Positions 13,101 to 28,400 of a stretch of DNA of 64,000 nt are shown here, piece by piece (position 1 is the stretch's first letter; each line of letters opens with the position of its first letter). A program made the position numbers and the translations under genes. The stretch spans positions 1-64,000 of the forward strand of contig JACZWU010000009.1 in the NCBI GenBank assembly GCA_022571985.1, read 5' to 3'. Below the pieces are notes generated by a model. That model was given only the letters and a program-made list of their open reading frames with translations, searched no databases and was not told the origin of the DNA. Source of the stretch: Candidatus Zixiibacteriota bacterium (GTDB lineage: Bacteria; Zixibacteria; MSB-5A5; GN15; FEB-12).

Positions 13101-13380
13101 GTATATTTCACTCCTGAAATGTTATCGTGATCTGAGAGACAATATATTATTCTAAAGACGAAAATGTCAACTCTTATGCCACTGCCTGCGGGCGTTCTGG
13201 TCGCCGCTTGACGGGTTAACTACTTACAATACAACACATTCTGGTATACGCTGGTTACCAGGCAGTGTTGCTTAACACTTAAAAAGGGCTTGCATAATCG
13301 AATTGAAACCATATCTTTTAACGTTTTATCTTTCTTTGGGTCTTAGGTAAAACCGCCACTCAGCGGGAAAGAGAGCAAGT

Positions 13381-14991
13381 ATGAAAATCAAATCATTTCT
13401 ACTAACAATTGTTGCAGTCACACTTATCAGCAGTCCCTGTTTTGCCGATCCGGTAGATTCTCTATTTAACGTTGTCACCTGGAGTGAAACTGGTGGAGGC
13501 AACGGACACACTTACGCCATACTAAAGATGACCATTACCTGGGACTCTTCGCGTGTCATCGTACCGACCTTAACTATGGATACCATGTCGGGGTATCTGG
13601 CTACTGCGACTTCACAGGCAGAGAACGACTTTATATTGGACAACGTCGTTATTGGCGCTGGCGTACAGCCGGTAATTGCACAGCAGTTTTTTCTTGGCGG
13701 TGAAGAACAAAGTTCGATTTGGGGCTGGCTGAACGGTGAGTTGTTCAATTTCACCAACTGGGCACCGGGTGAACCTAATAATGGTGTCGGAATCGAAACG
13801 GCACTTTCCATGTGGGGCTTTGAGGAAAGCGGACAACCTGCCGGCAAATGGAATAACACTCTGCCGAACCTTGAAGTTAATCCTTATATCAGGCAGTGGT
13901 CGGTAGTAGAATGGGGTGATCCCGACACAACCCAGGGTTCAGAAGATACTTTGGTAAATATAGTTACCTGGGACGAAGCCGAAGGCGGCAACGGACACAC
14001 CTACGCTTTACTCAAAATGACTATTACCTGGGACTCGGCTCGTGTCATTGTACCAACTTTAACTATGGATAGCATGGCCGGGTACTTGGCTACTGTAACT
14101 ACACTGGAAGAGAACGACTTTATTTTGAACAACGTTTTAAGTGGTGCTGGCGTTCAGCCGGTAATTGCCCAACAATTCTTTCTTGGAGGAGAAGAACTGA
14201 GTGCAGTTTGGGGCTGGCTGAACGGAGAGCCGTTCAATTTCACCAACTGGGCACCGGGGGAACCTAATAATGGTGTCGGAATCGAAACGGCACTTTCCAT
14301 GTGGGGCTTTGAGGAAAGCGGACAACCTGCCGGCAAATGGAATAACACTCTGCCGAACCTTGAAGTTAATCCTTATATCAGGCAGTGGTCGGTAGTAGAA
14401 TGGGGCGAACCCGATACAACTAAATCAATAATTGAACCTGAACCTGTTGCTGCTATCTCGGCATATGCTAAAATTCCGGCTATGGTCGAAATTTATCTTG
14501 GTAATTTTGAGGGTGATCCGGAAATTTACAACGAAAGTAGTGTAAATTATAGCAGTATTGTAATCAACAACACTGTTATACCCCAGTCTATAGTTACTAT
14601 TTCATCACACCCCGAGTTCAAAAGTGGTGTAGTGAGAATCTCTGTTGATGCTGCCGACTTTTTAGGCACTTATGATTTTATGTGGAGTATGACACAACAA
14701 TCATTCAATGTCGCCGGCATGTTCTCGGATAACACGTCGTTTTCGAATGATGCGATGGTGAGAATACAAGGACATATCGCTGGGGACGTAAATTTGGATG
14801 GCTCCGCTAATATAATTGACCTCACGTTTCTTGTGGACTATATTTTCAGGGGCGGACCTGAACCAATACTAACAGAGACAAGCGATGTTGACGCTTCCTG
14901 CAACAAAGCCAATATCGTAGATCTTACATATTTTGTTGATTATGTATTTAGAGGCGGGCCATCACCCGTACCAGGCTGTACCGAGAACTAA
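13381..14991 (+). CDS. Secreted protein with two C-type-lectin domains and dockerin-like tail
   Basis: A 536-aa protein: signal peptide (ending SSPCFADP), two C-type-lectin-like domains (~23-190 and ~190-345), a ~120-aa beta-rich linker (starting IEPEPVAAISAYAKIPAMVE) and the dockerin-like pair (GDVNLDGSANIIDLTFLVDY; ANIVDLTYFVDYVFRGG) ending GPSPVPGCTEN. Each lectin domain shows SGYLAT or AGYLAT, the EPN calcium-site motif in TNWAPGEPNNG and a WNNTLPN segment in place of the WND motif. EPN is the mannose/GlcNAc/fucose-type signature in this superfamily, so sugar binding is likely. The 3' parts of the two domains are almost identical DNA (offset 489 bp). The next two genes are paralogues. Confidence 0.85.
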   Translation: MKIKSFLLTIVAVTLISSPCFADPVDSLFNVVTWSETGGGNGHTYAILKMTITWDSSRVIVPTLTMDTMSGYLATATSQAENDFILDNVVIGAGVQPVIAQQFFLGGEEQSSIWGWLNGELFNFTNWAPGEPNNGVGIETALSMWGFEESGQPAGKWNNTLPNLEVNPYIRQWSVVEWGDPDTTQGSEDTLVNIVTWDEAEGGNGHTYALLKMTITWDSARVIVPTLTMDSMAGYLATVTTLEENDFILNNVLSGAGVQPVIAQQFFLGGEELSAVWGWLNGEPFNFTNWAPGEPNNGVGIETALSMWGFEESGQPAGKWNNTLPNLEVNPYIRQWSVVEWGEPDTTKSIIEPEPVAAISAYAKIPAMVEIYLGNFEGDPEIYNESSVNYSSIVINNTVIPQSIVTISSHPEFKSGVVRISVDAADFLGTYDFMWSMTQQSFNVAGMFSDNTSFSNDAMVRIQGHIAGDVNLDGSANIIDLTFLVDYIFRGGPEPILTETSDVDASCNKANIVDLTYFVDYVFRGGPSPVPGCTEN

Positions 14992-15010
14992 TACAGCAAT
15001 TGTGTGAACA

Positions 15011-15041
15011 AAACTACTATTTTTATTGATGAAATAGTGGT
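15011..15041 (+). terminator. Hairpin after the two-lectin gene
   Basis: ACTACTATTT (15013-15022) pairs with AAATAGTGGT (15032-15041) over a 9-nt loop. Only a weak T-rich tract follows, so termination strength is uncertain. Confidence 0.4.
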
Positions 15042-15122
15042 CTATTATTATATCTGTATTGCTTGTCGCAGTTAAGATAATTTGCCGTTTCATAAGTTCA
15101 ATTTATCGGGAGGTGCCACATT

Positions 15123-18100
15123 ATGAGAAAAGCAGCAATCTTAATCGTCGTTTTGGCAGCCGCTATTTGCTCTTTGACACAAACAGCTCATTCAATTGAT
15201 ACCCTTATCAATGTTACTGTCTGGAATGAAGCCGAGGGCGGCAACGGACACACCTATGCAGTACTTGCCGTCACCAAAAACTGGACAGACGCCAGTGCGA
15301 CCGCAGCATCATTACAGATGGCTGGCAGCTCCGGATATCTAGCCTCTATAACTTCTCAAGCCGAAAACGATTTTATTTTACATAACGTGCTGGCCGGCAT
15401 CAATAGCCAGCCGGAACCATCGCTGCAGAATTTGTTTTACATCGGAGGCACCCAGCCCGAATGCGACTGGAATTGGTCGACAAACGAGTCATTCTGCTTT
15501 ATGAACTGGGCACCTACAGAACCTAATAATTTCGGCGTTGAAAATGTAACGGGAATTTGGGGACATGGCGAAACTGACTGGAGACGCCCGGCCGGAGGCT
15601 GGAATAATACTTTACCCGACGACCTCTCTAATGAGCACGCTGTACAATGGTCAGTAGTTGAATGGGGAAATCTCAATCTGGATACGGAACCGTGCCATGC
15701 CAACCAGGATACCATATTTAATCTCGTCACCTGGAATGAAGCTGATGGCGGCAATGGCCATACTTATGCTGTAATAGGCTTAACTCTTAACTGGACAGAA
15801 GCCAACGCCCTTGCCCCCACACTCAGCAACGATGCCCTGCCCGGCTATCTGGCGACTATTACATCTCAGGAAGAAAATGACTTTATTCTAAACAACGTGC
15901 TGACCGGAATTACAACTCAACCCAGCCCCTCACTCCAGAATTTGTTCTTTACTGGAGGTACAGGCGAGAGCATATACTTTAGCTGGCAAAATGGCGAGTC
16001 TTTTTGCTTTATTAATTGGTCGCCGACTGAGCCCAATAACATCGGCGTTGAAACCGTAACTGGTATCTGGGGTTTCGGTGAAACAGACAGCAGACGCCCG
16101 GCCGGTGGCTGGAACAATACTTCGCCCGACGATTGTTCTAATCCGTACGCTGTTCAATGGTCGGTTATAGAATGGGGTACCTCGAATCTTGATACTGAGC
16201 CCTGCCCGGTTGATACAATTATCAATCTGGTAACCTGGCCTGAATCCGAAGGCGGCAACGGTCATACTTATGCTGTTATAGGTTTGACAATGAACTGGAC
16301 AGAGGCCAGCGCCTTTGCGCCGACATTATTGCAAAATTCCGAATCCGGCTATTTGGCAACAATTACCTCTCCTGCTGAAAACGAGTTTATTCTAAATCAT
16401 GTTTTGTCTGGTATCACCAATCAGCCCTTTCCATCGCTGCAAAACTTGTTTTATACCGGAGCAGTTGATTATGGCTGCGATTGGAATTGGCAAAATGGCG
16501 AATCATTCTGTTATTTAAATTGGTCTCCTACCGAGCCTAATAATATCGGGATAGAAACTGTAACCGGTATCTGGGGATATGGCGAAACTGACTACAGACG
16601 CCCGGCCGGAGGCTGGAATAATACTTCACCAGATAACAGCTCCAACCAATATGCCGTACAATGGTCGGTAATCGAATGGGGTGAAGCTAATCTTGATACT
16701 GCAGCTTGCTCCACAGGCGCAGATACATTGATTAATATTGTCACCTGGCCTGAAGCTGACGGCGGCAATGGTCACACTTATGCTGTAATAAGCTTGACTA
16801 TTAATTGGACAGAAGCAAACGCCCTGGCACCTACACTTACGCGCGAAGCGCTGCCCGGTTATCTGGCGACAATTACTTCTCAGGAAGAAAATGACTTTAT
16901 TTTACATAACGTGCTGGCCGGAATACAAAATCAACCCAGCCCCTCGCTCCAAAATTTGTTCTATACTGGAGGTACTGGCGAAAGCTATGCCTTTACCTGG
17001 CAAAACGGCGAGTCTTTTTGCTTTATTAATTGGTCGCCGACTGAGCCCAATAATATCGGCATTGAAACCGTAACCGGCATTTGGGGTTTCGGCGAAACTG
17101 ACAGCAGACGCCCGGCCGGTGGCTGGAACAATACTTCGCCCGACGATTGTTCTAATCCCTACGCTGTTCAATGGTCGGTTATAGAATGGGGTACCTCTAA
17201 CCTTGATACTGAGCCCTGCCCGGTTGATACAATTATCAATCTGGTAACCTGGCCTGAATCCGAAGGCGGCAACGGTCATACTTATGCAGTTATAGGTCTG
17301 ACAATGAACTGGACGCAGGCCAACGCTTTTGCGCTAAGTTTAGAACATGAATCTCTGCCCGGTTATCTGGCAACAATTACTTCTCCTGCTGAAAACCAAT
17401 TTATAGTCCAGCATGTGCTCTCTGGTATTACCAATCAGCCCTTTCCATCGCTGCAAAACTTGTTTTATACCGGAGCAGTTGATTATGGCTGCGATTGGAA
17501 CTGGCAAAACGGCGAATCGTTCTGCTATTTTAACTGGTCTCCTACCGAGCCTAATAATATCGGGATAGAAACTGTAAGCGGTATCTGGGGATATGGCGAA
17601 ACTGACTGGAGACGTCCGGCTGGAGGCTGGAACAATACTTCACCAGATAACAGCTCCAGCCAATATGCCGTACAGTGGTCAGTGATAGAATGGGGTGAAT
17701 CAAATCTTGACACGGCAGCTTGCTCCGCAGGCGCAGATACACTGATTAACATTGTCACCTGGAACGAAGCCGATGGCGGCAACGGACATACCTATGCCAT
17801 AATAGGCATAACCTTAAACTGGTCTGAGGCTGACGCCTTGGCTCCTGCTCTCATGCACGAAGCAAACTCCGGATATCTGGCAACTATAACATCTGCTGAA
17901 GAAAATGATTTCATCCTGCAAAATGTACTCTCTGGTATCTCACATCAACCATTTCCATCATTGCAAAACTTGTTCTATGTTGGCGCTGTTCAGGCAGCCG
18001 GACTATGGGCCTGGCAGAACGGAGAAACTATGAATTTCTTCAACTGGTCACCAACAGAACCCAATAATCTTTATGACGAAACAGTAATGGGTATCTGGGG

Positions 18101-19283
18101 CTTTGGGGAAACGGACGACAGACGTCCGTCGGGAGGCTGGAATAATACTTGGCCAGATGATTGTCGAAATCCGTACGCTTTGCAGTGGTCGGTCATTGAG
18201 TGGGGTGAACCTGATCCCGCCAATTTCCTGGTCGATACACTTGCCAACATAATTTCATGGTCGTCTTTAGATGGAGGCAACGATCATACTTATGCCATTA
18301 CAAAAGTGTCTCTGAACTGGACCGATGCCAATGCTTTTGCTCCTACCCTAGATCATCTGGGGAAACCAGGATATCTCGCCACCATTACATCGGCTGAAGA
18401 AAATGAATTTATACTCAGTCATATCTTAGCAAACTTTACCGGTCAGCCATCGGCACTCGACCAGTTCTACCTGGGAGGCGTTTATGATGGCGTTGAATGG
18501 GGCTGGCAATCAGGTGAGACATTCGATTTTACTAACTGGTCACTCTATGAGCCAAATAACGAAGGCATCGAAACTGTCATCGCCGTCTGGGGAGTTAATG
18601 AAACGGATGAAAGACGAGCCGCCGGAACCTGGAACAGCACCCTGCCGGATAATAGTTTCAATCCGTTTACTATTCAGTGGTCTATTATTGAGTGGGATGT
18701 ACCCGATACTACTAAATCAATAATAGAACCTGAACCGGTCTCTGCTCTCTCAGCTCATACAAAAATACCTGCGACGGTTGAAATATACTTAGGCAACTTT
18801 GAGGGTGACGAGAATATCTATAATGAAAACACGCTTGACTACGGCAGCATTGTTATTAACAATACTGTAACTCCCATTTCGGTAGTTGCCGTTTCATCGC
18901 ACCCGAAATTCAAAAGCGGCGTTGTGAAAATATCGGTTAATTCTGATGATTTCATAAACACCTACGACTTCATGTGGGGCATGACCATAGAATCATTTAA
19001 TATAACTGCGATGTTCTCAAATAACACATCGTTTTCAAATGACGCCATCGTGAAGATACAAGGATATATCGCTGGGGACGTCAATCTGGACGGCGGTGCA
19101 AATATTCTCGATCTGACAACCCTGGTAGATTATTTATTCAGAGGCGGCTCTGAACCATTAGTTCCCGAAACAAGCGATGTGGACAATTCCTGCGGAATAG
19201 CCAACATCATTGATTTAACATATTACGTTGATTTCCTCTTTAGAGGCGGACCACCACCTCTGCCGGGATGTTCAGAAATTTAG
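15123..19283 (+). CDS. Secreted protein with seven tandem C-type-lectin domains and dockerin-like tail
   Basis: A 1386-aa protein. After the signal peptide (1-24) seven lectin domains start near residues 26, 196, 364, 534, 702, 872 and 1038, each ~169 aa and each opening with a DTLINIVTW-type strand and NGHTYA. All contain the EPN motif (for example SPTEPNN) except none is truncated; domain 7 reads YEPNNEG. A beta-rich linker (~1190-1320) matches that of the preceding gene, followed by the paired dockerin-like motifs and a final GPPPLPGCSEI. The array suggests multivalent binding of a polysaccharide or host/prey glycan outside the cell. Domains repeat with a two-domain period of exactly 1014 bp at DNA level. 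GGGAGGTG lies just before the ATG. Nothing shows what it binds. Confidence 0.87.
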   Translation: MRKAAILIVVLAAAICSLTQTAHSIDTLINVTVWNEAEGGNGHTYAVLAVTKNWTDASATAASLQMAGSSGYLASITSQAENDFILHNVLAGINSQPEPSLQNLFYIGGTQPECDWNWSTNESFCFMNWAPTEPNNFGVENVTGIWGHGETDWRRPAGGWNNTLPDDLSNEHAVQWSVVEWGNLNLDTEPCHANQDTIFNLVTWNEADGGNGHTYAVIGLTLNWTEANALAPTLSNDALPGYLATITSQEENDFILNNVLTGITTQPSPSLQNLFFTGGTGESIYFSWQNGESFCFINWSPTEPNNIGVETVTGIWGFGETDSRRPAGGWNNTSPDDCSNPYAVQWSVIEWGTSNLDTEPCPVDTIINLVTWPESEGGNGHTYAVIGLTMNWTEASAFAPTLLQNSESGYLATITSPAENEFILNHVLSGITNQPFPSLQNLFYTGAVDYGCDWNWQNGESFCYLNWSPTEPNNIGIETVTGIWGYGETDYRRPAGGWNNTSPDNSSNQYAVQWSVIEWGEANLDTAACSTGADTLINIVTWPEADGGNGHTYAVISLTINWTEANALAPTLTREALPGYLATITSQEENDFILHNVLAGIQNQPSPSLQNLFYTGGTGESYAFTWQNGESFCFINWSPTEPNNIGIETVTGIWGFGETDSRRPAGGWNNTSPDDCSNPYAVQWSVIEWGTSNLDTEPCPVDTIINLVTWPESEGGNGHTYAVIGLTMNWTQANAFALSLEHESLPGYLATITSPAENQFIVQHVLSGITNQPFPSLQNLFYTGAVDYGCDWNWQNGESFCYFNWSPTEPNNIGIETVSGIWGYGETDWRRPAGGWNNTSPDNSSSQYAVQWSVIEWGESNLDTAACSAGADTLINIVTWNEADGGNGHTYAIIGITLNWSEADALAPALMHEANSGYLATITSAEENDFILQNVLSGISHQPFPSLQNLFYVGAVQAAGLWAWQNGETMNFFNWSPTEPNNLYDETVMGIWGFGETDDRRPSGGWNNTWPDDCRNPYALQWSVIEWGEPDPANFLVDTLANIISWSSLDGGNDHTYAITKVSLNWTDANAFAPTLDHLGKPGYLATITSAEENEFILSHILANFTGQPSALDQFYLGGVYDGVEWGWQSGETFDFTNWSLYEPNNEGIETVIAVWGVNETDERRAAGTWNSTLPDNSFNPFTIQWSIIEWDVPDTTKSIIEPEPVSALSAHTKIPATVEIYLGNFEGDENIYNENTLDYGSIVINNTVTPISVVAVSSHPKFKSGVVKISVNSDDFINTYDFMWGMTIESFNITAMFSNNTSFSNDAIVKIQGYIAGDVNLDGGANILDLTTLVDYLFRGGSEPLVPETSDVDNSCGIANIIDLTYYVDFLFRGGPPPLPGCSEI
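15708..17735 (+). repeat. Two-domain lectin unit duplicated in tandem, period 1014 bp
   Basis: Lectin domains 2-3 (15708-16721) and 4-5 (16722-17735) align with a fixed offset of 1014 bp (338 codons). The stretch around 16090-16270 and its copy at 17104-17284 differ at only a few positions, and domain 6 starts again at the same 1014-bp step from domain 4. Confidence 0.85.
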
Positions 19284-19335
19284 TAAACAGCTGCGGATAC
19301 CGCTGTATAACTTATACCGGTCCATAGAATATTCT

Positions 19336-19369
19336 ATAGCTATGGCCTCTTAATTGAGGTCATAGCTAT
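19336..19369. terminator. Strong hairpin after the seven-lectin gene
   Basis: ATAGCTATGGCCTC (19336-19349) pairs with GAGGTCATAGCTAT (19356-19369), 14 bp with one G-T pair and loop TTAATT. There is no clear T tract, so it may act as an mRNA-end stabiliser rather than a classic terminator. Confidence 0.5.
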
Positions 19370-19492
19370 CATACTTACAGCCGGTCTGTGCCTATATTAA
19401 GTGTTGCAAATATTATCCGGTTTACTATATTGAGAATGTCTAAAATTACATCCAATTTCTTGTAATTCTCTAATCTCTTGGAGAGCGCTGAT

Positions 19493-21085
19493 ATGAAGAT
19501 CAAATCACTAATACTGACAATTGTTATAGCCGCCTTCGTCTGTAACCCGTGTTTTGCAGACCCGGCAGATTCCCTGGTAAAAATCATTAAATGGCAACAC
19601 CAGGACGGCGGCAACGGCCATACCTATGCTGTACTGAAAATGACCCTGAACTGGACAGAGGCTGACGCATTAGTGCCTGCACTAATTCGTGATGACTTGC
19701 CGGGTTACCTGGCGACTATTACTACGCCTCAAGAAAACGATTTTATCAGAAATCAGGTTCTCAATGATCTTCCTGACCAGCCCTCTCTCTTAGACCAATT
19801 CTATCTTGGTGGGATTTATGTCAACGAAACCTGGGTCTGGCAGCCGGATGAAACAATTGTCTATTTTAACTGGAACCAAGGCGAGCCCAATAATGTCGGC
19901 GTGGAAACCGTCATGTCTATCTGGGGTTATCATCAAGTGGAAGGAAGCGCCATAGCCGGACTGTGGAACAATACTCTACCGGATGACAGCTTCAACCAAT
20001 ATGCTATTCAGTGGTCAGTTGTTGAATGGGACGAACCCGACACCACCGAGAGTTCTGCAGATAGCTTGGTAAAGATTACCAAGTGGGAAAAATCAGACGG
20101 CGGCAACGGCCATACTTATGCTATTTTGAAACAGATATTGATCTGGGATTCTGCCAATGTACTTGTTCCTACATTAGTGCGATTTGGGGAACCGGGATAC
20201 TTAGCGAGTATCACATCGCAGGAAGAAAATGACTTTATTCAATTTCAATTGCTTGAGGGTATGCCGCGACAAACATCAATAGCCGATCAGTATTTTACTG
20301 GCGGTATATATGTAAACAATGAATGGTTCTGGCAAACTGGAGAGCCGTTTGACTATACCAATTGGGCACCTCCGGAACCCAATAACATTGGCATTGAAAT
20401 TGTAACATCAATCTGGGGATACGGTGGAAGGGAACCGAGACAACCAGCAGGAAAGTGGAATAATACCCTTCCAAATCATAACGTTAACCCCTATATACAC
20501 CAATGGTCAGTTGTTGAATGGGACGAACCTGAATTACTAAACATTGCTATTGAACCCGACGAACTCAATGCCGCAGATTCAAAACCCAGAGACTCTGCTA
20601 TTGTCTCAATCTATCTTATGCAGTTTTTAACTCCCTATACATCGAATGACATTGACCGGAACAGCCTGTTAATTAACGGCCATCTGGGACCGTTAAACGT
20701 GTCAGTCACGACGTCATTTGGTGGCGCCCTAAAGGTTGAGGTGCTGCTTCATGATTTCCTGAAAGATTACGTGATTCTCTGGGACACCACCACACTTGGA
20801 TACAGTATTGAAGGAAGTTTCACAGACAATACTCCTTTCAATATTGCCGGCAGTTTTCAGATCATTGGACATAATCCCAGAGATTCAAACCCGCACAGTA
20901 ATGTCAGTGTGGCAGAACTTACAGTTTTTATCAATATGCTGTTTCGGGGAAAGTCTGCACCAGGACGTTTAGATGCCTTTGATTTTGACGGCTCCTGCGG
21001 TGTTCCAAATATTTCGGATCTCAGGTACTTAATCAATTTTCTGTTCCGCGGCGGGCCACCACCTCTGCCGGGCTGTTCTGAGTGA
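19493..21085 (+). CDS. Secreted protein with two C-type-lectin domains and degenerate dockerin-like tail
   Basis: A 530-aa paralogue of the gene at 13381. I start at ATG 19493, where GGAG lies 9 nt upstream and the protein begins MKIKSLILTIVIAAF like its paralogue; an upstream TTG (19478) is less likely. Two lectin domains carry EPN motifs (QGEPNNVG, PPEPNNIG) and WNNTLP. The linker and first dockerin-like half are diverged: the calcium loop reads RDSNPHSNVSVAEL and lacks most Asp ligands, whereas the second half (FDFDGSCGVPNISDLRYLIN) keeps the FRGG motif and the C-terminal GPPPLPGCSE. So the terminal Cys-bearing motif is conserved even where the calcium loop is not. Confidence 0.83.
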   Translation: MKIKSLILTIVIAAFVCNPCFADPADSLVKIIKWQHQDGGNGHTYAVLKMTLNWTEADALVPALIRDDLPGYLATITTPQENDFIRNQVLNDLPDQPSLLDQFYLGGIYVNETWVWQPDETIVYFNWNQGEPNNVGVETVMSIWGYHQVEGSAIAGLWNNTLPDDSFNQYAIQWSVVEWDEPDTTESSADSLVKITKWEKSDGGNGHTYAILKQILIWDSANVLVPTLVRFGEPGYLASITSQEENDFIQFQLLEGMPRQTSIADQYFTGGIYVNNEWFWQTGEPFDYTNWAPPEPNNIGIEIVTSIWGYGGREPRQPAGKWNNTLPNHNVNPYIHQWSVVEWDEPELLNIAIEPDELNAADSKPRDSAIVSIYLMQFLTPYTSNDIDRNSLLINGHLGPLNVSVTTSFGGALKVEVLLHDFLKDYVILWDTTTLGYSIEGSFTDNTPFNIAGSFQIIGHNPRDSNPHSNVSVAELTVFINMLFRGKSAPGRLDAFDFDGSCGVPNISDLRYLINFLFRGGPPPLPGCSE

Positions 21086-21110
21086 TTTAGAATATTTTAG
21101 ACTCTCATAA

Positions 21111-21142
21111 AAATAGCTGCGCAGGGACTCAGAACCCCGGAC
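21111..21142. repeat. Third, outermost copy of the tRNA-Met 3' end (attachment-site remnant)
   Basis: The 32 bases match the 3' end of the tRNA-Met gene and its flank (26401-26432) with one substitution and one inserted base, in the same orientation. The match stops before the anticodon arm, so this copy is shorter than the one at 23951. Confidence 0.7.
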
Positions 21143-21156
21143 ACTTGCCAGCAGTC

Positions 21157-23873
21157 TCAAATGCTGATCCAGTAATTTACTTTGACAAGCACAGTATTGT
21201 CGGCTGCGGTTGATAAAACGTCACTCAGATCATCTCTCCAGTTAAAAGAACCGTCCGAGCGTGAATTATTTCTTCCGTGCTGCCAGGCGAAAAACAAAAC
21301 CGAGCCCGGTTTGTATTCCCAGCGAACCACCAGAGTCGAACGTATTTCACTAAAATTAAAATCAGGCTGGCCAAACGAAAAATCTGCAGTGTCATCGTTG
21401 TCTAAGTCAACGTCACATTGACCATCGACACAATCGATTTCATCATCATATATTCGAAATCTGTCGTAGAATTCTTTGGCACGAGGATCTACAACTTCCT
21501 TAAATCTGCTGTAGCTTCCGGCCGCCACAAACGGCTGTGCATACAACTGAACAGAAAGAGTCGGATTAAGCGTCCAGTTAACCCGCATTGTCATGCGCAA
21601 CTGTCGATTTTCGATTTCGGCCAAAACATAACGGGTGGAACCAAGTGCATCAAACTTGCCGACCCACTGGATCGGATCACGGTTCCAAGTGTAACTTAAT
21701 CCGAAACTTGCGTTGAGTATTGCGCTTGGTCGTATTCTTATAGAAGGGCTGATGTCATAGAAAGACTTTCTATTGTTAAAATTACCTCCAATATTTGACC
21801 ATAGTTCAAAGGACAATCGCTTTCTGCTGTCTGATAGTATTCCAATAAAACTATTGTGCCACAAGTCTCCCCGCAAAGCCGGTCCGCCTCGGAGCTTACC
21901 AATAGCCAGAGGCTGCCATTCTATGGCTATAGGATTAAAATCTATCGTCCAGTTATTATGGAAAGTTGCGATGGCATGAATCGGCCGAAACCATGTCCAC
22001 CTGTGTTCTCCTGCTGTAGTTAGTCCGGTATTAGTCCCAAGGTCGTAACGGAAACTCCGTAATATGCCTTTCGGCTTTGATTGAATATACTTAAGAAACG
22101 TTTCTGCAAATTGCATATCAGCATTGATCTGAAAGCCCATATCATTAATTTCAAATCCGGGACTGGTACGCTCGTAGTATGCGAAATATTGCCAATTGCC
22201 GGACTCTTTTGCTCCTCTTACGCTGAACGAAGTGCCGGAAAGAGTCGTTCTGGTAGTATCCAGCTCAACGTGATCGGCATCAGGCCGTTGATAGTATCTA
22301 AACGGTGAAAGCTGAGCATTTGTTATAGCTTCGCGGCTGCCGCGGATGTTGCTTGCAGCCAGACGCCAACGAAATGCATATTTGTTCTTCTGCCACCTAT
22401 GAACCCCGTCAGCCAGTCCTACATAGGCGGCTGATGGTATAAAACTGAGATTATCATTCAGATTTCGATTGACCGCAGTGACCGACATACCAACAATATT
22501 ATTTCCTTGATTAAATTCCTGTTCAATCCGGCCGGCAAAATAATGCGTAAACGGACCAATCTCTGCTGAACCAACAATACTTCCCAAAGAGTCTCGAAAT
22601 ACTCCGTCTTCTGAAGCATTGAACGCGCTCAAAATTCCGACACCGAGACCACCGGCCGTTTTACCTGTTACTTTTGCCGCACTTATGATAGTTGAAGCCT
22701 CCGGAATTTCAATCGTTCCGCCAGATGGCGGACTGGCGAATCCCCGTGGACGTCTTCCAATCCTGCGTGAATAAAAAATCTGTCCACCCGGTGCTTCTTT
22801 GTTAAATAGTCCGGAGCCTTCGACAAAAAACCTGCGCTTCTCTGAGAAAAAACTCTCAAATGCAGTCAAATTTATTTCCGACGGATCGGCCTCGACTTGT
22901 CCAAAATCCGGATTGATTGTCAAATCAACAGTTAGGTTAGAAGTCAGGCCGTACTTTATATCCAACCCTCCGCTAAAGTCGGTTTCATCGGAAGGTGCGT
23001 AAAAGATTCCGGTTCCTTGTGGTCTCTTTCTGCTGCTGGCTACGGTATAGGGACGAATCTCCAGCCTGGTCGGCGCTTCCAGGTCATTTAATCCCTCAAG
23101 CACGCCAAATAGCGACACAAAACCGCTGGCTTCTTTAGAAGTGGGTGCCCAAAAAGTTTCTTCGGCCTTGCGTTGAATCCAGCGATTTACCTGAAATCCC
23201 CAGGTCGTATGCGCTTTTTTAAATCGAAGCTGCGAAAGAGGAATTCGAAACTCCGCAGTCCAGCCAAGACTGTCGATCGATGTTTCGACTTGCCAGACGG
23301 GATCCCAGGTAAGATCAGGATTATCTTCAGAGTCTCCGAAGAAAATTCCGTCCCGGAAGGAGCCTCCTGGAGTGACAGCAAAGGCAAAGCAATTTCGCCG
23401 GTCGTGATAAGAGTCAAAATAGATAACAATCTCATCAGATTCTGCCCACACATCCCGGCGGGCAATTTCTTTACTTATCAGCCGAGGTTCCGAATCAAAT
23501 GCCCGCACACCGACATACATGGCGTCGTTACTATACAATACCCTGACTTCGGTCTTTTCGGTTGCCGGGCTGCCATCACTTGGGTCACGCTGAGTGAAAC
23601 CAGTTGCAATAGCCGCTTCTTGCCATGGTTTTCGTTCAAATATCCGTCAATCTTCACTTCTGTGTTTGCTACCTTTGACGCTTGCAGTCTGCGAACTGAA
23701 TATTGTTCGCCTCCCTGCGCACTTAGAGAAGATGCCTGACAAAACACAGCGAATAAAATTAGAATAATAACTGCTAGTGGGTTAGTCGTTAAAATCGCTA
23801 AATCGGAAAGTATTGAAATAGTTTTTGTGATAGAGTTTCTAGTTTGTCCAGATAGAGTTATAACTCTGTTCAT
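21157..23873 (-). pseudogene. CBM9-like/DUF5916 outer-membrane protein gene, frameshifted near the N-terminus
   Basis: The reading frame is split at 23629-23632. The upstream piece (23873 to ~23632) codes a signal peptide and the start of a family 9 carbohydrate-binding-like domain ending IDGYLNE; the downstream piece continues KPWQEAAIATGFTQRDPSDG and runs to 21157. Adding one A to the AAAA run on the coding strand joins them perfectly. The remainder matches DUF5916 proteins: a CBM9-like sandwich followed by a beta barrel (NPDFGQVEADPSEINLTAFE is a family hallmark) with C-terminal VKVNYWISI. So it is either a fresh pseudogene, a sequencing indel in a homopolymer, or programmed slippage. The rest (~880 aa) is intact, which speaks for a recent event. 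It lies between two copies of the tRNA-derived attachment sequence. Confidence 0.75.
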
Positions 23874-23950
23874 AGATTTTCTCGTTTTAGATTAATGGAC
23901 ATAAAAGCTTAGTTGATTATACGAAATTTTTAATGATATTGTTAAAAATT

Positions 23951-24033
23951 AATAGCGGCGCAGGGACTTGTCGAAGCGCAAGCGGAGATCCTGAGTGAAA
24001 CGAAGGGAACCCCGGCCCACGGATTATGATTCC
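23951..24033. repeat. Distal attachment-site copy of tRNA-Met, split by a palindrome
   Basis: AATAGCGGCGCAGGGACT (23951-23968) and GAACCCCGG plus CCCACGGATTATGATTCC (24007-24033) match tRNA positions 26402-26448 in direct orientation, covering the tRNA from the anticodon loop to the 3' end. Between them lie 38 bases of the CTTCGAC...CTCAGGATC palindrome family where the tRNA has one base. Confidence 0.8.
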
Positions 24034-24615
24034 TCGGCGTTGTGTTACATAGCAACAACTTACAACGGTTCGTCATAATAAAAGTGTCCCATGATGTATC
24101 ACCATCCTATTCATCGTCGCCCTGTCCCACTATTTGCCAAAAAGTGTCTAACCGTCTATAACAGTGTTGTCCCAATTTACCATACTGGGAGTTGGAAATG
24201 AGAGTTGTACCCTCTTCGTCAAAGAGCGTAAAGAAAAGTGTATCGGAAGATAAGTAAAAACGTCGCATTATGTAAACTATAACATCAAGATATTCTCACA
24301 GCACTAATCAATATTGTTCACAAATATTGGCTTTCATAAAGACGACATACACGATACATTATTGAATATAGATAAAGTCCTTATGGGCTGCTCTGATTGC
24401 CCTGATACGCAGTGTTGACGTAACTATCTTTGCAATTTGCTACTCAGGGTCATCTGATTCTGCCCAAACTACAAATTGTCTGGTTTTGGATATATGAAAA
24501 AAGGAGAATTGTAGTCGCGGGTTCGATGGGTGTAGCCGGTGTAAACCATAGTTATATAGAAGTGAAAGAGAAATGGACTTACGACTTAAATTACTTGTGA
24601 CGGAGGAGGTGTGAT
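24034..24615. other. Non-coding left part of the integrated element
   Basis: No gene is supported in these 580 bases. They hold two AAAAGTGTC motifs (24080-24089 and 24137-24151) that resemble the pair just inside the other end of the element, and an AT-rich stretch before the 181-aa gene. Confidence 0.45.
24137..24151. promoter_or_regulatory. Candidate integrase arm-type site, left
   Basis: CCAAAAAGTGTCTAA matches CCAAAAAGTGTCCTAA at 26262-26277 in the same orientation, with one extra C in the latter. A partial copy, AAAAGTGTCC, is at 24080. Confidence 0.4.
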
Positions 24616-25161
24616 ATGAAGACTGCGCTTATTAGTATCATTGTGTTTGTAAGCCTGGTTCAGATAGGCCAAGGTCAGATGTTGTCGCGTCAGGTGAAAT
24701 CGCTAGAAGGCACGCCCAATTTTTTTGTTTTCTCTGATATTTACGCACGGAACGAAATATACTTAGGGATTATCGACAAAACATGGCTCAAGACCAAAGT
24801 TGAGCTGGCATGCAGAAAATCTGGCATTGCTGTCGTAGATTATTATCTACAAACCATGCTTAGAATCAATTTACATGTGATGCGCTTAGATACCAAGGAA
24901 GTTTTCGGTGATTATTATTTTTATACTATCAGCCTGTCAGTAGTTGATCTGGTCGTCATGAGTCGCGCAGTAACAAACAAGATTATCGCCGGGGAACCTT
25001 GGGAAAATACGTCTACCGTAGAAGCAATTACTTGGTCGTATTCATACTTGGGTGGTTCACCCAAGAAAGATTTTCAGGATGCGATGTCTGACATGGTCAG
25101 TGACCTAATGGACACTTTCATCAACGACTACTTGGCTGCCAATCCAAAGGATGACGGATGA
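24616..25161 (+). CDS. Secreted protein of unknown function carried next to the integrase
   Basis: 181 aa; I do not recognise the family. A signal peptide (MKTALISIIVFVSLVQIGQG) is followed by a soluble domain with mixed helices and strands; Tyr-rich stretches (DYYLQTML, GDYYFYTISLSVVD) dominate the middle, and it ends in a charged tail. There is no lipobox Cys, so it should be periplasmic or secreted. A very strong GGAGGAGGTG ribosome site precedes the ATG. It is the only gene besides the integrase between the two inner attachment copies, so it is probably cargo. Nothing links it to defence or toxicity. Confidence 0.65.
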   Translation: MKTALISIIVFVSLVQIGQGQMLSRQVKSLEGTPNFFVFSDIYARNEIYLGIIDKTWLKTKVELACRKSGIAVVDYYLQTMLRINLHVMRLDTKEVFGDYYFYTISLSVVDLVVMSRAVTNKIIAGEPWENTSTVEAITWSYSYLGGSPKKDFQDAMSDMVSDLMDTFINDYLAANPKDDG

Positions 25162-25236
25162 TACTCGATCTAATATACTTAGCCCTTGGACCATTAGTCA
25201 CCAACCTTTGTTACCGTAGCATTAAAAGGATGAAAG

Positions 25237-26253
25237 ATGCCTCAACCGATTAAGTATGACCGTGGGTACAGAGTAAACTTCAATTACGAAGGCAGAAAGA
25301 GTCGTAAAAAGTTCCCTGCTCATAAACACCGAGACGCAAAACAGTCGGCCATAAACTTCATCAATACTATTCAGCGAGGTGTAATCCCGGATGATGCACT
25401 TTTACAAAACCAAATAAATGAATATTTGAGCTGGGCTGAGGCTACTGGTAAAAAGCGACCATCAACAATTAGGTCGGACAGACTGAGACTAAACATATTT
25501 TCAGAATACACAGATGCCAAATCGGCCAGACGAATCACAATCCAACACATCAGGGCATTCCAAATGTACTTCCTCGAAAATCACCCTCTTTATCGGTCTC
25601 CCAATTCACGAACTCTGGGGAATAAGTTTGTCACTTGGGATAGATACAAATCGGCAATTTCAGCAATTATGGGGTGGTGTAAAACTCGTTACTACATAGA
25701 GAATAATCTATTGCTGGACACGGACGAGTTCAAAACCAAACACCAAGAAAGACTTCCCCAGAGAATCTACACATCAGAAGAACTAAGTCAGATATTTGAG
25801 TACTTTGAAGACGATAAAAAACTGAGTGCTTTTTTTAGATTATTGGCCTACACGGGAATGAGATTAGGTGAAGCGCGTCAGTTAGAATGGAAGTCTATCC
25901 GGGATGATACAATTCAAGTCCTGGGAGAAACTAAGAATAAAAGGGTCAGATCAATCCCTATCAGCCCAAAGCTAAAACCCTACCTGACGAAACTGAAGAA
26001 GAAGGGCGTACTCTTCCCGCGCGCTGGTCATGCCTATTACAAACAACTTCAAAAAGTTATTAGAGATTGTGGTTTGCCGCCAGGTAAGATTCACGACTTC
26101 AGACATACATTCGGCGCAACCTTAGCAAAAGAGGGCGTTCACATCGGTACAATCAAAGAACTGATGGGACACCAAGACATAAAAACCACAATGAGGTACT
26201 TGCACTTTGCGCCTAAGCATTTATCAGATTCTATCGGAAAATTGAGCTATTAA
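25237..26253 (+). CDS. Tyrosine recombinase / site-specific integrase
   Basis: 338 aa with the full catalytic set: Arg in TGMRLGEARQLEW, Lys in ETKNKRVRSIPIS, HxxR in HDFRHTFG, His in LMGHQDIKTT and the Tyr nucleophile in MRYLHF. The N-terminal ~60 residues (GYRVNFNYEGRKSRKKFPAH) look like an AP2-type arm-binding domain; residues ~65-165 form the SAM-like core-binding domain. The gene points at the 3' end of tRNA-Met 150 bp away, the classic layout of an element integrated into that tRNA. The reading frame is undamaged, so the enzyme may be active. It is a serine-free, phage/ICE-type integrase rather than XerC/D, which lack the AP2 arm. Confidence 0.93.
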   Translation: MPQPIKYDRGYRVNFNYEGRKSRKKFPAHKHRDAKQSAINFINTIQRGVIPDDALLQNQINEYLSWAEATGKKRPSTIRSDRLRLNIFSEYTDAKSARRITIQHIRAFQMYFLENHPLYRSPNSRTLGNKFVTWDRYKSAISAIMGWCKTRYYIENNLLLDTDEFKTKHQERLPQRIYTSEELSQIFEYFEDDKKLSAFFRLLAYTGMRLGEARQLEWKSIRDDTIQVLGETKNKRVRSIPISPKLKPYLTKLKKKGVLFPRAGHAYYKQLQKVIRDCGLPPGKIHDFRHTFGATLAKEGVHIGTIKELMGHQDIKTTMRYLHFAPKHLSDSIGKLSY

Positions 26254-26261
26254 AAAGTGAC

Positions 26262-26278
26262 CCAAAAAGTGTCCTAAC
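26262..26278. promoter_or_regulatory. Candidate integrase arm-type site, right
   Basis: CCAAAAAGTGTCCTAAC lies 9 bases after the integrase stop codon, preceded by AAAAAGTGACCC at 26252. The pair mirrors the motifs at 24080 and 24137. Confidence 0.4.
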
Positions 26279-26400
26279 TTGGGTCATTCTTGGTTCATTT
26301 TGGTTGAAAGTGGATAACCGAAGTCCCAATAGTTCCCTATCAATTTACGGCGTAAGCCTCTTTGTAGTAGGGGATTGCACTGCATACCAACGACTTATAT

Positions 26401-26448
26401 AAATAGCGGCGCAGGGACTCGAACCCCGGACCCACGGATTATGATTCC
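26401..26448. repeat. Proximal attachment site within tRNA-Met
   Basis: The 48 bases from the tRNA 3' flank through the anticodon loop are repeated directly at 23951-24033 (with an insertion) and, in part, at 21111-21142. Confidence 0.75.
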
Positions 26449-26477
26449 GTTGCTCTAACCAACTGAGCTACGCCGCC
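26404..26477 (-). tRNA. tRNA-Met (CAU anticodon)
   Basis: The minus strand folds as a full cloverleaf: acceptor GGCGGCG / CGCCGCT (first pair G-U), D arm GCTC...GAGC, anticodon stem ACGGA/TCCGT with loop ATCATAA (anticodon CAU), variable GGGTC region and T arm CGGGG-TTCGAGT-CCCTG. The 3' CCA is not encoded. Elongator Met is the best fit; tRNA-Ile2 with a CAU anticodon is the alternative because lysidine cannot be seen in DNA. Its 3' half doubles as the attachment site of the neighbouring integrase. Confidence 0.9.
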
Positions 26478-26574
26478 ATCTTAGTCAATTTGCAGGCCAT
26501 TGAAAGTAACCAATTTATCGGCATAGTCAAGATTCAAGCCTGAGATGTCAGCACATGAGCGGCTACCCTAATTA

Positions 26575-26614
26575 CGTGGGCGGCCGCCAAAGGCGTGTCC
26601 TCATCTGCCCCAAT
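26575..26614. repeat. GTGGGCGGC...CATCTGCCCC repeat
   Basis: GTGGGCGGCCGCCAAAGGCG is followed by TGTCCTCATCTGCCCCA. It is a copy of the family at 6027 and 56722. Confidence 0.65.
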
Positions 26615-26999: not shown

Positions 27000-28400
27000 C
27001 TATTTAGACTTCTTCTTAGCCAAATGGACGCATTCGCCATGAATATCATGGACAGCTTCCATTATTGCCTCAGAAATCACCGGATGGCCAAAAATCAGCG
27101 AGCCGAGCTGCTTAGCTGTCAGCCCTTGATTTACCGCCAGTGCCGCCACGTGAATAACCTCAGTAGCGTGCACGCCGCAGACATGAACCCCTAAAAGCTT
27201 GTCTGTCTTCTTGTCAGCAATAACCAGCACCTCACCGGCTATTTCATTTTCTGCATGAGCTTTACCAAGTGCCCGCAGAGGAAACTTACCGGTGACGACA
27301 TTATGTTTTTTAGAGGCCGCTTCTTCTGTGATGCCGACTGAGGCAACCTCGGGGTGGGTGAAAATAACAGACGGCACGCCGGCGTAATTTTTCTTATATT
27401 TGCCGTTTAAGGCATTTTCTACCGCCACCACTCCGTCATGAACAGCAGTATAAGCCAGCAGAATTTCACCGCGGACATCGCCAATGGCAAAAATATTTTT
27501 GACATTCGTCCGCATATCATCGCCGGTTGGTATCGAGCCGTTCTTGTTCATCTTGACTTTAATCTCTTCCAGCCCCAGATCTTCGGTATTAAAGGCCCGC
27601 CCGACAGCTACCAGCGCCTGATCTGCCTCGACAGATATGCCGCCGGATAACTTGGCGACTATTCCCTTAGCACTCGGGTTAATTGATTCGACCCTGGTGC
27701 CGGTATGAATATCTACTTTATGTTTCTTGAGTTCACGCGCCAGTATCTTGGAATTGTTGGCGTCTTCCATCGGCAGAATTCTGTCCATCATCTCGACTAT
27801 GGTAACTTTGACATCCAGAAGAGAGAGCATGCAAGCCCACTCACAGCCGATTACACCCGCCCCGATTATAAACATCGAACCGGGCAGATTTTCGAGTTCA
27901 AGCAAATGATCTGAGTTAAGAATACGGATTCCATCGACCGGAAAGGGCGGCAAATTGACCGCTCTGGAACCGGTCGCAATGATGATATTTTTGGCTTCGA
28001 TTTTTGTCTCTTCGTTATCTTCATCAATGACAACAACCTGATTTTTGCCGGCTATCTTGCCCCAGCCGTCAAAATGTTTGACTCCGTGAGATTTTAAAAG
28101 CTGCCCGATTCCCCCGACCATCGTGGATACTATCTTGTTTTTTCTGTCAAGCATAGCCGACCAGTCATAAACAGGCGGAGTTTCAAGATTAATCCCAAAA
28201 CTCTTAGCATTTTTCATCTTTTGGTACTGCTCAGCCGTTGCAATCAATGTTTTAGAAGGAATACAGCCACGATTTAAGCAAACGCCGCCGAGCTTGTCAT
28301 ACTCCACTACGGCTGTCCTGGCGCCTTTCATAGCTGCCTTTATTCCGGCCGTATAACCGCCGGGACCGCCGCCTATTATTACTATATCAAACTTTTCGAT
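27000..28400 (-). CDS. lpdA: Dihydrolipoamide dehydrogenase (E3)
   Basis: 466 aa if read from codon 28400-28398. FAD-binding GGGPGGYTA lies near residues 9-17, the redox disulfide in GGVCLNRGCIPSK (~residues 42-54), the NAD-binding glycine motif in IIGAGVIGCEWA and the C-terminal HPVISEAIMEAVHDIHGE with the active-site His-Glu pair. It reoxidises lipoyl groups of 2-oxoacid dehydrogenase or glycine cleavage complexes; no E1/E2 gene is nearby. No ATG, GTG or TTG precedes the FAD motif: AAGGAG sits 9 nt before an ATC codon that would start (M)EKFDIVIIGGG. The first ATG in frame (28331) would delete the FAD motif, so it cannot be the real start. It is not mercuric reductase: the C-terminal vicinal Cys pair is missing. 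Confidence 0.9.
   Translation of the reverse strand: MEKFDIVIIGGGPGGYTAGIKAAMKGARTAVVEYDKLGGVCLNRGCIPSKTLIATAEQYQKMKNAKSFGINLETPPVYDWSAMLDRKNKIVSTMVGGIGQLLKSHGVKHFDGWGKIAGKNQVVVIDEDNEETKIEAKNIIIATGSRAVNLPPFPVDGIRILNSDHLLELENLPGSMFIIGAGVIGCEWACMLSLLDVKVTIVEMMDRILPMEDANNSKILARELKKHKVDIHTGTRVESINPSAKGIVAKLSGGISVEADQALVAVGRAFNTEDLGLEEIKVKMNKNGSIPTGDDMRTNVKNIFAIGDVRGEILLAYTAVHDGVVAVENALNGKYKKNYAGVPSVIFTHPEVASVGITEEAASKKHNVVTGKFPLRALGKAHAENEIAGEVLVIADKKTDKLLGVHVCGVHATEVIHVAALAVNQGLTAKQLGSLIFGHPVISEAIMEAVHDIHGECVHLAKKKSK

Follow-up and report, generated by a model that had tools for sequence, protein, structure and literature searches.

A putative 2.4-kb integrative element at a tRNA-Met gene, within an apparently older integration hotspot, in Zixibacteria

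In tyrosine-integrase phages, a core of 30–45 bp containing the 3′ half of a tRNA gene is typical, and flanking arm sites are usual (PMC10865867). At the ssrA locus of Dehalococcoides, genomic islands with direct repeats lie in tandem at one tmRNA gene (PMC3146451). Here we describe a tRNA-Met locus in the phylum Zixibacteria at which a tyrosine integrase gene lies among stacked copies of the tRNA 3′ part. The whole stretch of DNA that was analysed, 64,000 nucleotides in length, is referred to as the window; it is contig C15, and the draft genome to which it belongs totals 2.9 Mb. The features of the locus are collected in Table 1.

The initial annotation had recognised three copies of tRNA-Met sequence, and this was confirmed by comparing the tRNA-Met 3′ half with the whole window by BLAST. 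Apart from the tRNA itself, the search returned copy 1 (91.7%, E = 8e-9) and the two parts of copy 2, at 24007–24033 (96%, E = 4e-7) and 23948–23968 (95%, E = 2e-4); the next match in the window had an E-value of about 1. Since only these sequences were returned, the repeats are not a chance occurrence. Copies 1 and 2 and the tRNA-Met all have the same orientation, yet they differ among themselves. Copy 2, annotated at 23951–24033, is indeed a complete tRNA-Met 3′ half reaching the anticodon stem (i.e. the distal direct repeat expected of a tyrosine-integrase element at a tRNA site), but it starts at 23948 and is split in the T-loop by an insert. Copy 1, annotated as a partial copy at 21111–21142, was borne out with slightly extended limits; it comprises the T-arm and acceptor strand only, and its T-loop has one extra nucleotide.

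Table 1. Positions in the window of the tRNA-Met gene, its copies and the features between them
Feature	Position	Strand	Remarks
Copy 1, decayed T-arm/acceptor scrap of tRNA-Met	21107–21142	−	
DUF5916 gene, two overlapping frames (21157–23538, 23478–23873)	21157–23873	−	between copies 1 and 2
Copy 2, att copy at distal end (tRNA-Met 3′ half, split by insert)	23948–24033	−	
REP-like insert, T-loop of copy 2	23971–24007	.	37 nt; identical in G001 relic
Putative inner integrative element, whole	24034–26400	.	~2.4 kb
Arm-type-like repeat TAAGTTGTTGCTATG, distal end	24048–24062	−	
ORFan, signal-like N-terminus, sole cargo gene	24616–25161	+	181 aa
Tyrosine integrase, points at tRNA	25237–26253	+	338 aa; PF00589; nearest solved structures P2 (presumed) and HP1 integrases
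Arm-type-like repeat TAAGTCGTTGGTATG, tRNA-proximal end	26383–26397	−	
att core	26401–26448		part of tRNA-Met
Intact tRNA-Met (CAT), integration target	26404–26477 (about)	−	ARAGORN and Rfam

The first description of the inner interval, as a very small element of ~2.4 kb with an intact tyrosine integrase directed at the tRNA and one unknown secreted protein, held up. The integrase ORF matches PF00589 over an intact frame (E = 7e-24) and has the conserved motifs TGMR, HDFRH, GHQD and RYLHF. In the structure comparison set, its best solved relatives were 5c6k and 5dor, which are listed as Integrase and which we take to be P2 integrase, together with HP1 integrases. Two of its closest relatives aim into tRNA genes, one for tRNA-Leu (G024) and one for tRNA-Ser (G004). 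An ortholog was absent from both same-genus genomes, G001 and G002, and no close relative was found in viral contigs. The ORFan is the only other gene. It gave no match in Pfam, NCBIfam, PHROGs or PADLOC, and no relative was found in 60 relatives, in 132 genomes of the phylum (including the same-genus genomes) or in phages; folding from the single sequence gave a poor model (mean pLDDT 40). The 0.6 kb at the distal end of the element is apparently non-coding, and the GC content of the whole element is 0.411, compared with about 0.45 on either side. Searches for phage structural and replication genes in the element returned only the integrase and the ORFan, and neither of these two ORFs is a relaxase. 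Genes for an excisionase, for replication or for transfer were not recognised in it, so that the element would need outside help or may be stranded.

The 15-nt motif TAAGTYGTTGSTATG occurs twice in the 64 kb, in the same orientation, when up to two mismatches are allowed, the motif having been derived from the two sites that it then matches. Both sites lie just inside the ends of the inner element, and nowhere else in the window. Random pairs of flanks shared a 15-mer equally well in 12 of 3000 cases. The repeats look as paired arm-type integrase sites would be expected to look, and binding is presumed. Several att relics found at the initiator-type tRNA-Met in G000 and G002 have a related motif, GTAAGTNGTTG, ~60 nt inside them.

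The tRNA-Met lies downstream of a dihydrolipoamide dehydrogenase-like gene (lpd; 27000–28331, named by inspection). This order is kept in most of the family, and the DNA downstream is hypervariable. A recombinase was found beside the tRNA-Met in five of the 18 family loci examined (the window, G002, G011, G020 and G017). In the last three of these, tyrosine integrases lie directly downstream of the same tRNA-Met and read away from it, with Pfam confirmation for G011 and G017. In G002, a large serine recombinase takes up the tRNA-Met site, and its ORF (L098:5482–7125, at the end of contig C6) ends inside the tRNA at the same locus as in the window. Among the remaining family loci, the first genes downstream vary widely. 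On the evidence of these sequence comparisons, the tRNA-Met locus is a recurrent integration target.

Two other observations were made around tRNA-Met genes. On a different G002 contig (C20; L051:10797–12537), the GC content jumps from ~45% to 62–65% exactly at a tRNA-Met, with unrelated genes beyond, and this contig is likely to be chimeric and joined at the tRNA-Met. At 26569–26612 in the window there is a 35–45-nt sequence that is present at many places in G001 and G002, a genus-wide dispersed repeat.

An empty tRNA-Met site had been proposed as a check in sister genomes. In G001, 24 nt separate an insert-bearing relic of the tRNA 3′ end from an intact tRNA-Met, and this gap contains no integrase. 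This junction lacks the inner element, but it has the 24 extra bases and different flanks, and the locus would represent an approximate empty site. Because copy 2 reaches the anticodon and the G001 relic extends over the T-arm only, one extra rearrangement must be assumed.

The outer interval, between copies 1 and 2, had been described as carrying only the DUF5916 gene. This gene is split over two overlapping frames, which points to a frameshift or a sequencing error. In G001 and G002 an ortholog is absent, with just 35–36% identical paralogs present, and a sister DNA match is absent over most of the interval. Sister genomes sharing the copies together with the genes between them had been named as evidence against insertion; G001 and G002 do not share those genes. 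Copy 1 directly follows a lectin-dockerin gene (19478–21085). In G002, a worn sequence resembling a T-arm lies equally far behind the homologous lectin gene (C6:145831–147102), and the 25 kb from there to the tRNA is different DNA. Because G002 keeps this decayed match behind the homologous gene, copy 1 is probably an old boundary of the hotspot; it is probably also older than the split from G002. The region before copy 1 (13351–21085) is made up of lectin-dockerin genes in tandem, with numerous lectin-C repeats inside them, and G002 has fewer at the corresponding place.

Inserts related to that of copy 2, ~25 to 62 nt in length, were found in 10 tRNA-Met relics across three genomes of the genus, at both elongator- and initiator-type loci. 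In all 10 relics the insert interrupts the T-loop between C56 and R57, and the extra nucleotide of copy 1 is at the same point. Searches of the three genus genomes with halves of the insert returned tRNA-Met relics and one unrelated site (G002:C16:63770), and no convincing copy was found elsewhere in the family. A similar short repeat is present in other phyla, where 25 other matches were inspected and were not at T-loops. An ordinary dispersed REP was considered and rejected: the motif does occur in other phyla, but the copies found in the genus are all in tRNA-Met relics except one. A covarying hairpin was sought in the insert, giving 5 weak pairs only (−1.1 kcal/mol), and a literature search for the repeat sequence returned nothing. 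Y1 transposases, which are possible movers of REPs, are present in all three genus genomes, with no link to the insert shown.

Because the G001 relic has the identical insert and no integrase before the tRNA, the comparison suggests an order of events in which the relic with its insert came first and the inner element later. G000 has, at its initiator-type locus, a plain copy of the tRNA adjacent to a T-arm with the insert, consistent with displacement of a 3′ half to a position beside an older relic. The same arrangement, in collapsed form, could account for copy 2 of the window. The relationship between the integrases of the elongator- and initiator-type loci is a distant one, at 28% across the catalytic domain. 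Candidates for the origin of the insert are a repeat specific to T-loops, a piece of former attP sites and the terminus of some other element. Its position at C56/R57 at two loci might reflect a site-specific process, either a mobile repeat directed at the T-loop of tRNA copies that no longer function or a common att design by which relics are kept from serving as targets again, an idea that we regard as a long shot. Downstream of the initiator-type tRNA-Met of G000 (L121:2464–2540, within G000:C10:40000–59999) a further four or more tRNA 3′ relics are found, some of them containing the T-loop insert, with integrase-tail remnants interspersed. This array also contains defence-looking genes, judged by eye to be methylase-like and AbiE-like.

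The initial annotation had read the locus as two successive insertions. Taken as two complete events, these would be an outer insertion from copy 1 to copy 2, with DUF5916 as cargo and its integrase since lost, and then the inner one. The inner part of this reading stood, whereas the outer part relies on copy 1 and the missing DUF5916 orthologs; as a tandem array, the locus has an att-bounded inner unit and an outer unit with copy 1 as its one supporting repeat. Three copies in one orientation would agree with two insertions, as would a DUF5916 gene with such distant paralogs and so little matching DNA in the sisters. However, 21143–23947 contains no integrase, no arm-like site and no GC shift, so that an older insertion minus its integrase is plausible at most, and copy 1 need not pair with copy 2: it consists of a T-arm scrap, lies at an old boundary and has its decayed counterpart in G002. 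We rate two complete insertions at somewhat below even odds.

It is more doubtful that the inner segment is the remnant of a larger prophage or island, cut down to its integrase end and one gene and now immobile. The presence of two genes only, the apparently non-coding distal end and an integrase of phage P2 type are in keeping with such a history, but att copies and arm-like repeats are found at both ends, and the deletion must then have been internal and have spared both. The copies might instead be tRNA-derived repeats spread by a REP-like element, independently of the integrase, as the 10 insert-bearing relics of the genus could indicate. Against this, the copies are arranged in tandem at their own tRNA, the insert has tRNA-specific sequence to either side and arm-like motifs are close to several copies; we consider spread of this kind very improbable.

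The reading that we favour, with a probability of roughly 0.8, is that a putative integrative element of ~2.4 kb entered at the tRNA-Met 3′ half by means of its own P2/HP1-like integrase, inside an older hotspot bounded by copy 1. Several features at the sequence level support the inner element well as a small insertion at tRNA-Met with an integrase of its own, namely the att duplication, the paired arm-like repeats, the lower GC content, its absence in both sisters and the approximate empty site of G001. The element's tyrosine integrase would have recombined attP with tRNA-Met, probably in the anticodon loop, given that the anticodon stem marks the limit of the shared core. An intact tRNA would have been rebuilt from the copy on the element, and the old 3′ half would have been displaced outward to become copy 2. 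The hotspot entered would have been a pre-existing one, with decayed copy 1 as its outer boundary, and the genus-specific REP-like T-loop insert in att relics appears to be older than the element.

The locus provides a record, from a poorly studied phylum, of a very small element with an integrase and of a tRNA-Met hotspot that has been reused, and the recurrence of the T-loop insert is a curiosity that could be relevant to the marking or retirement of att relics. With P2/HP1-type tRNA elements and prophages the window element shares the 3′-half core, the arm-like flanking sites and the integrase beside the tRNA; in contrast to such prophages, it measures ~2.4 kb and structural, replication and excisionase genes were not recognised in it. 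Tandem att-flanked units, some without an integrase, are reportedly also a feature of integrative and mobilizable or cis-mobilizable elements that arise by accretion (reviewed in PMC5704250), but neither a relaxase nor a transfer gene was recognised in the window element. The Dehalococcoides ssrA islands are alike in having stacked 3′-end repeats downstream of one RNA gene, variable cargo and islands without a recombinase, and the large serine recombinase of G002 runs into tRNA-Met as DsiB does at ssrA; unlike those islands, the window has a tyrosine integrase, a tRNA-Met target and a far smaller size (PMC3146451). The inner element would be a known kind of tRNA-site mobile element, and the unusual part is the insert that repeats at the same point in the relics.
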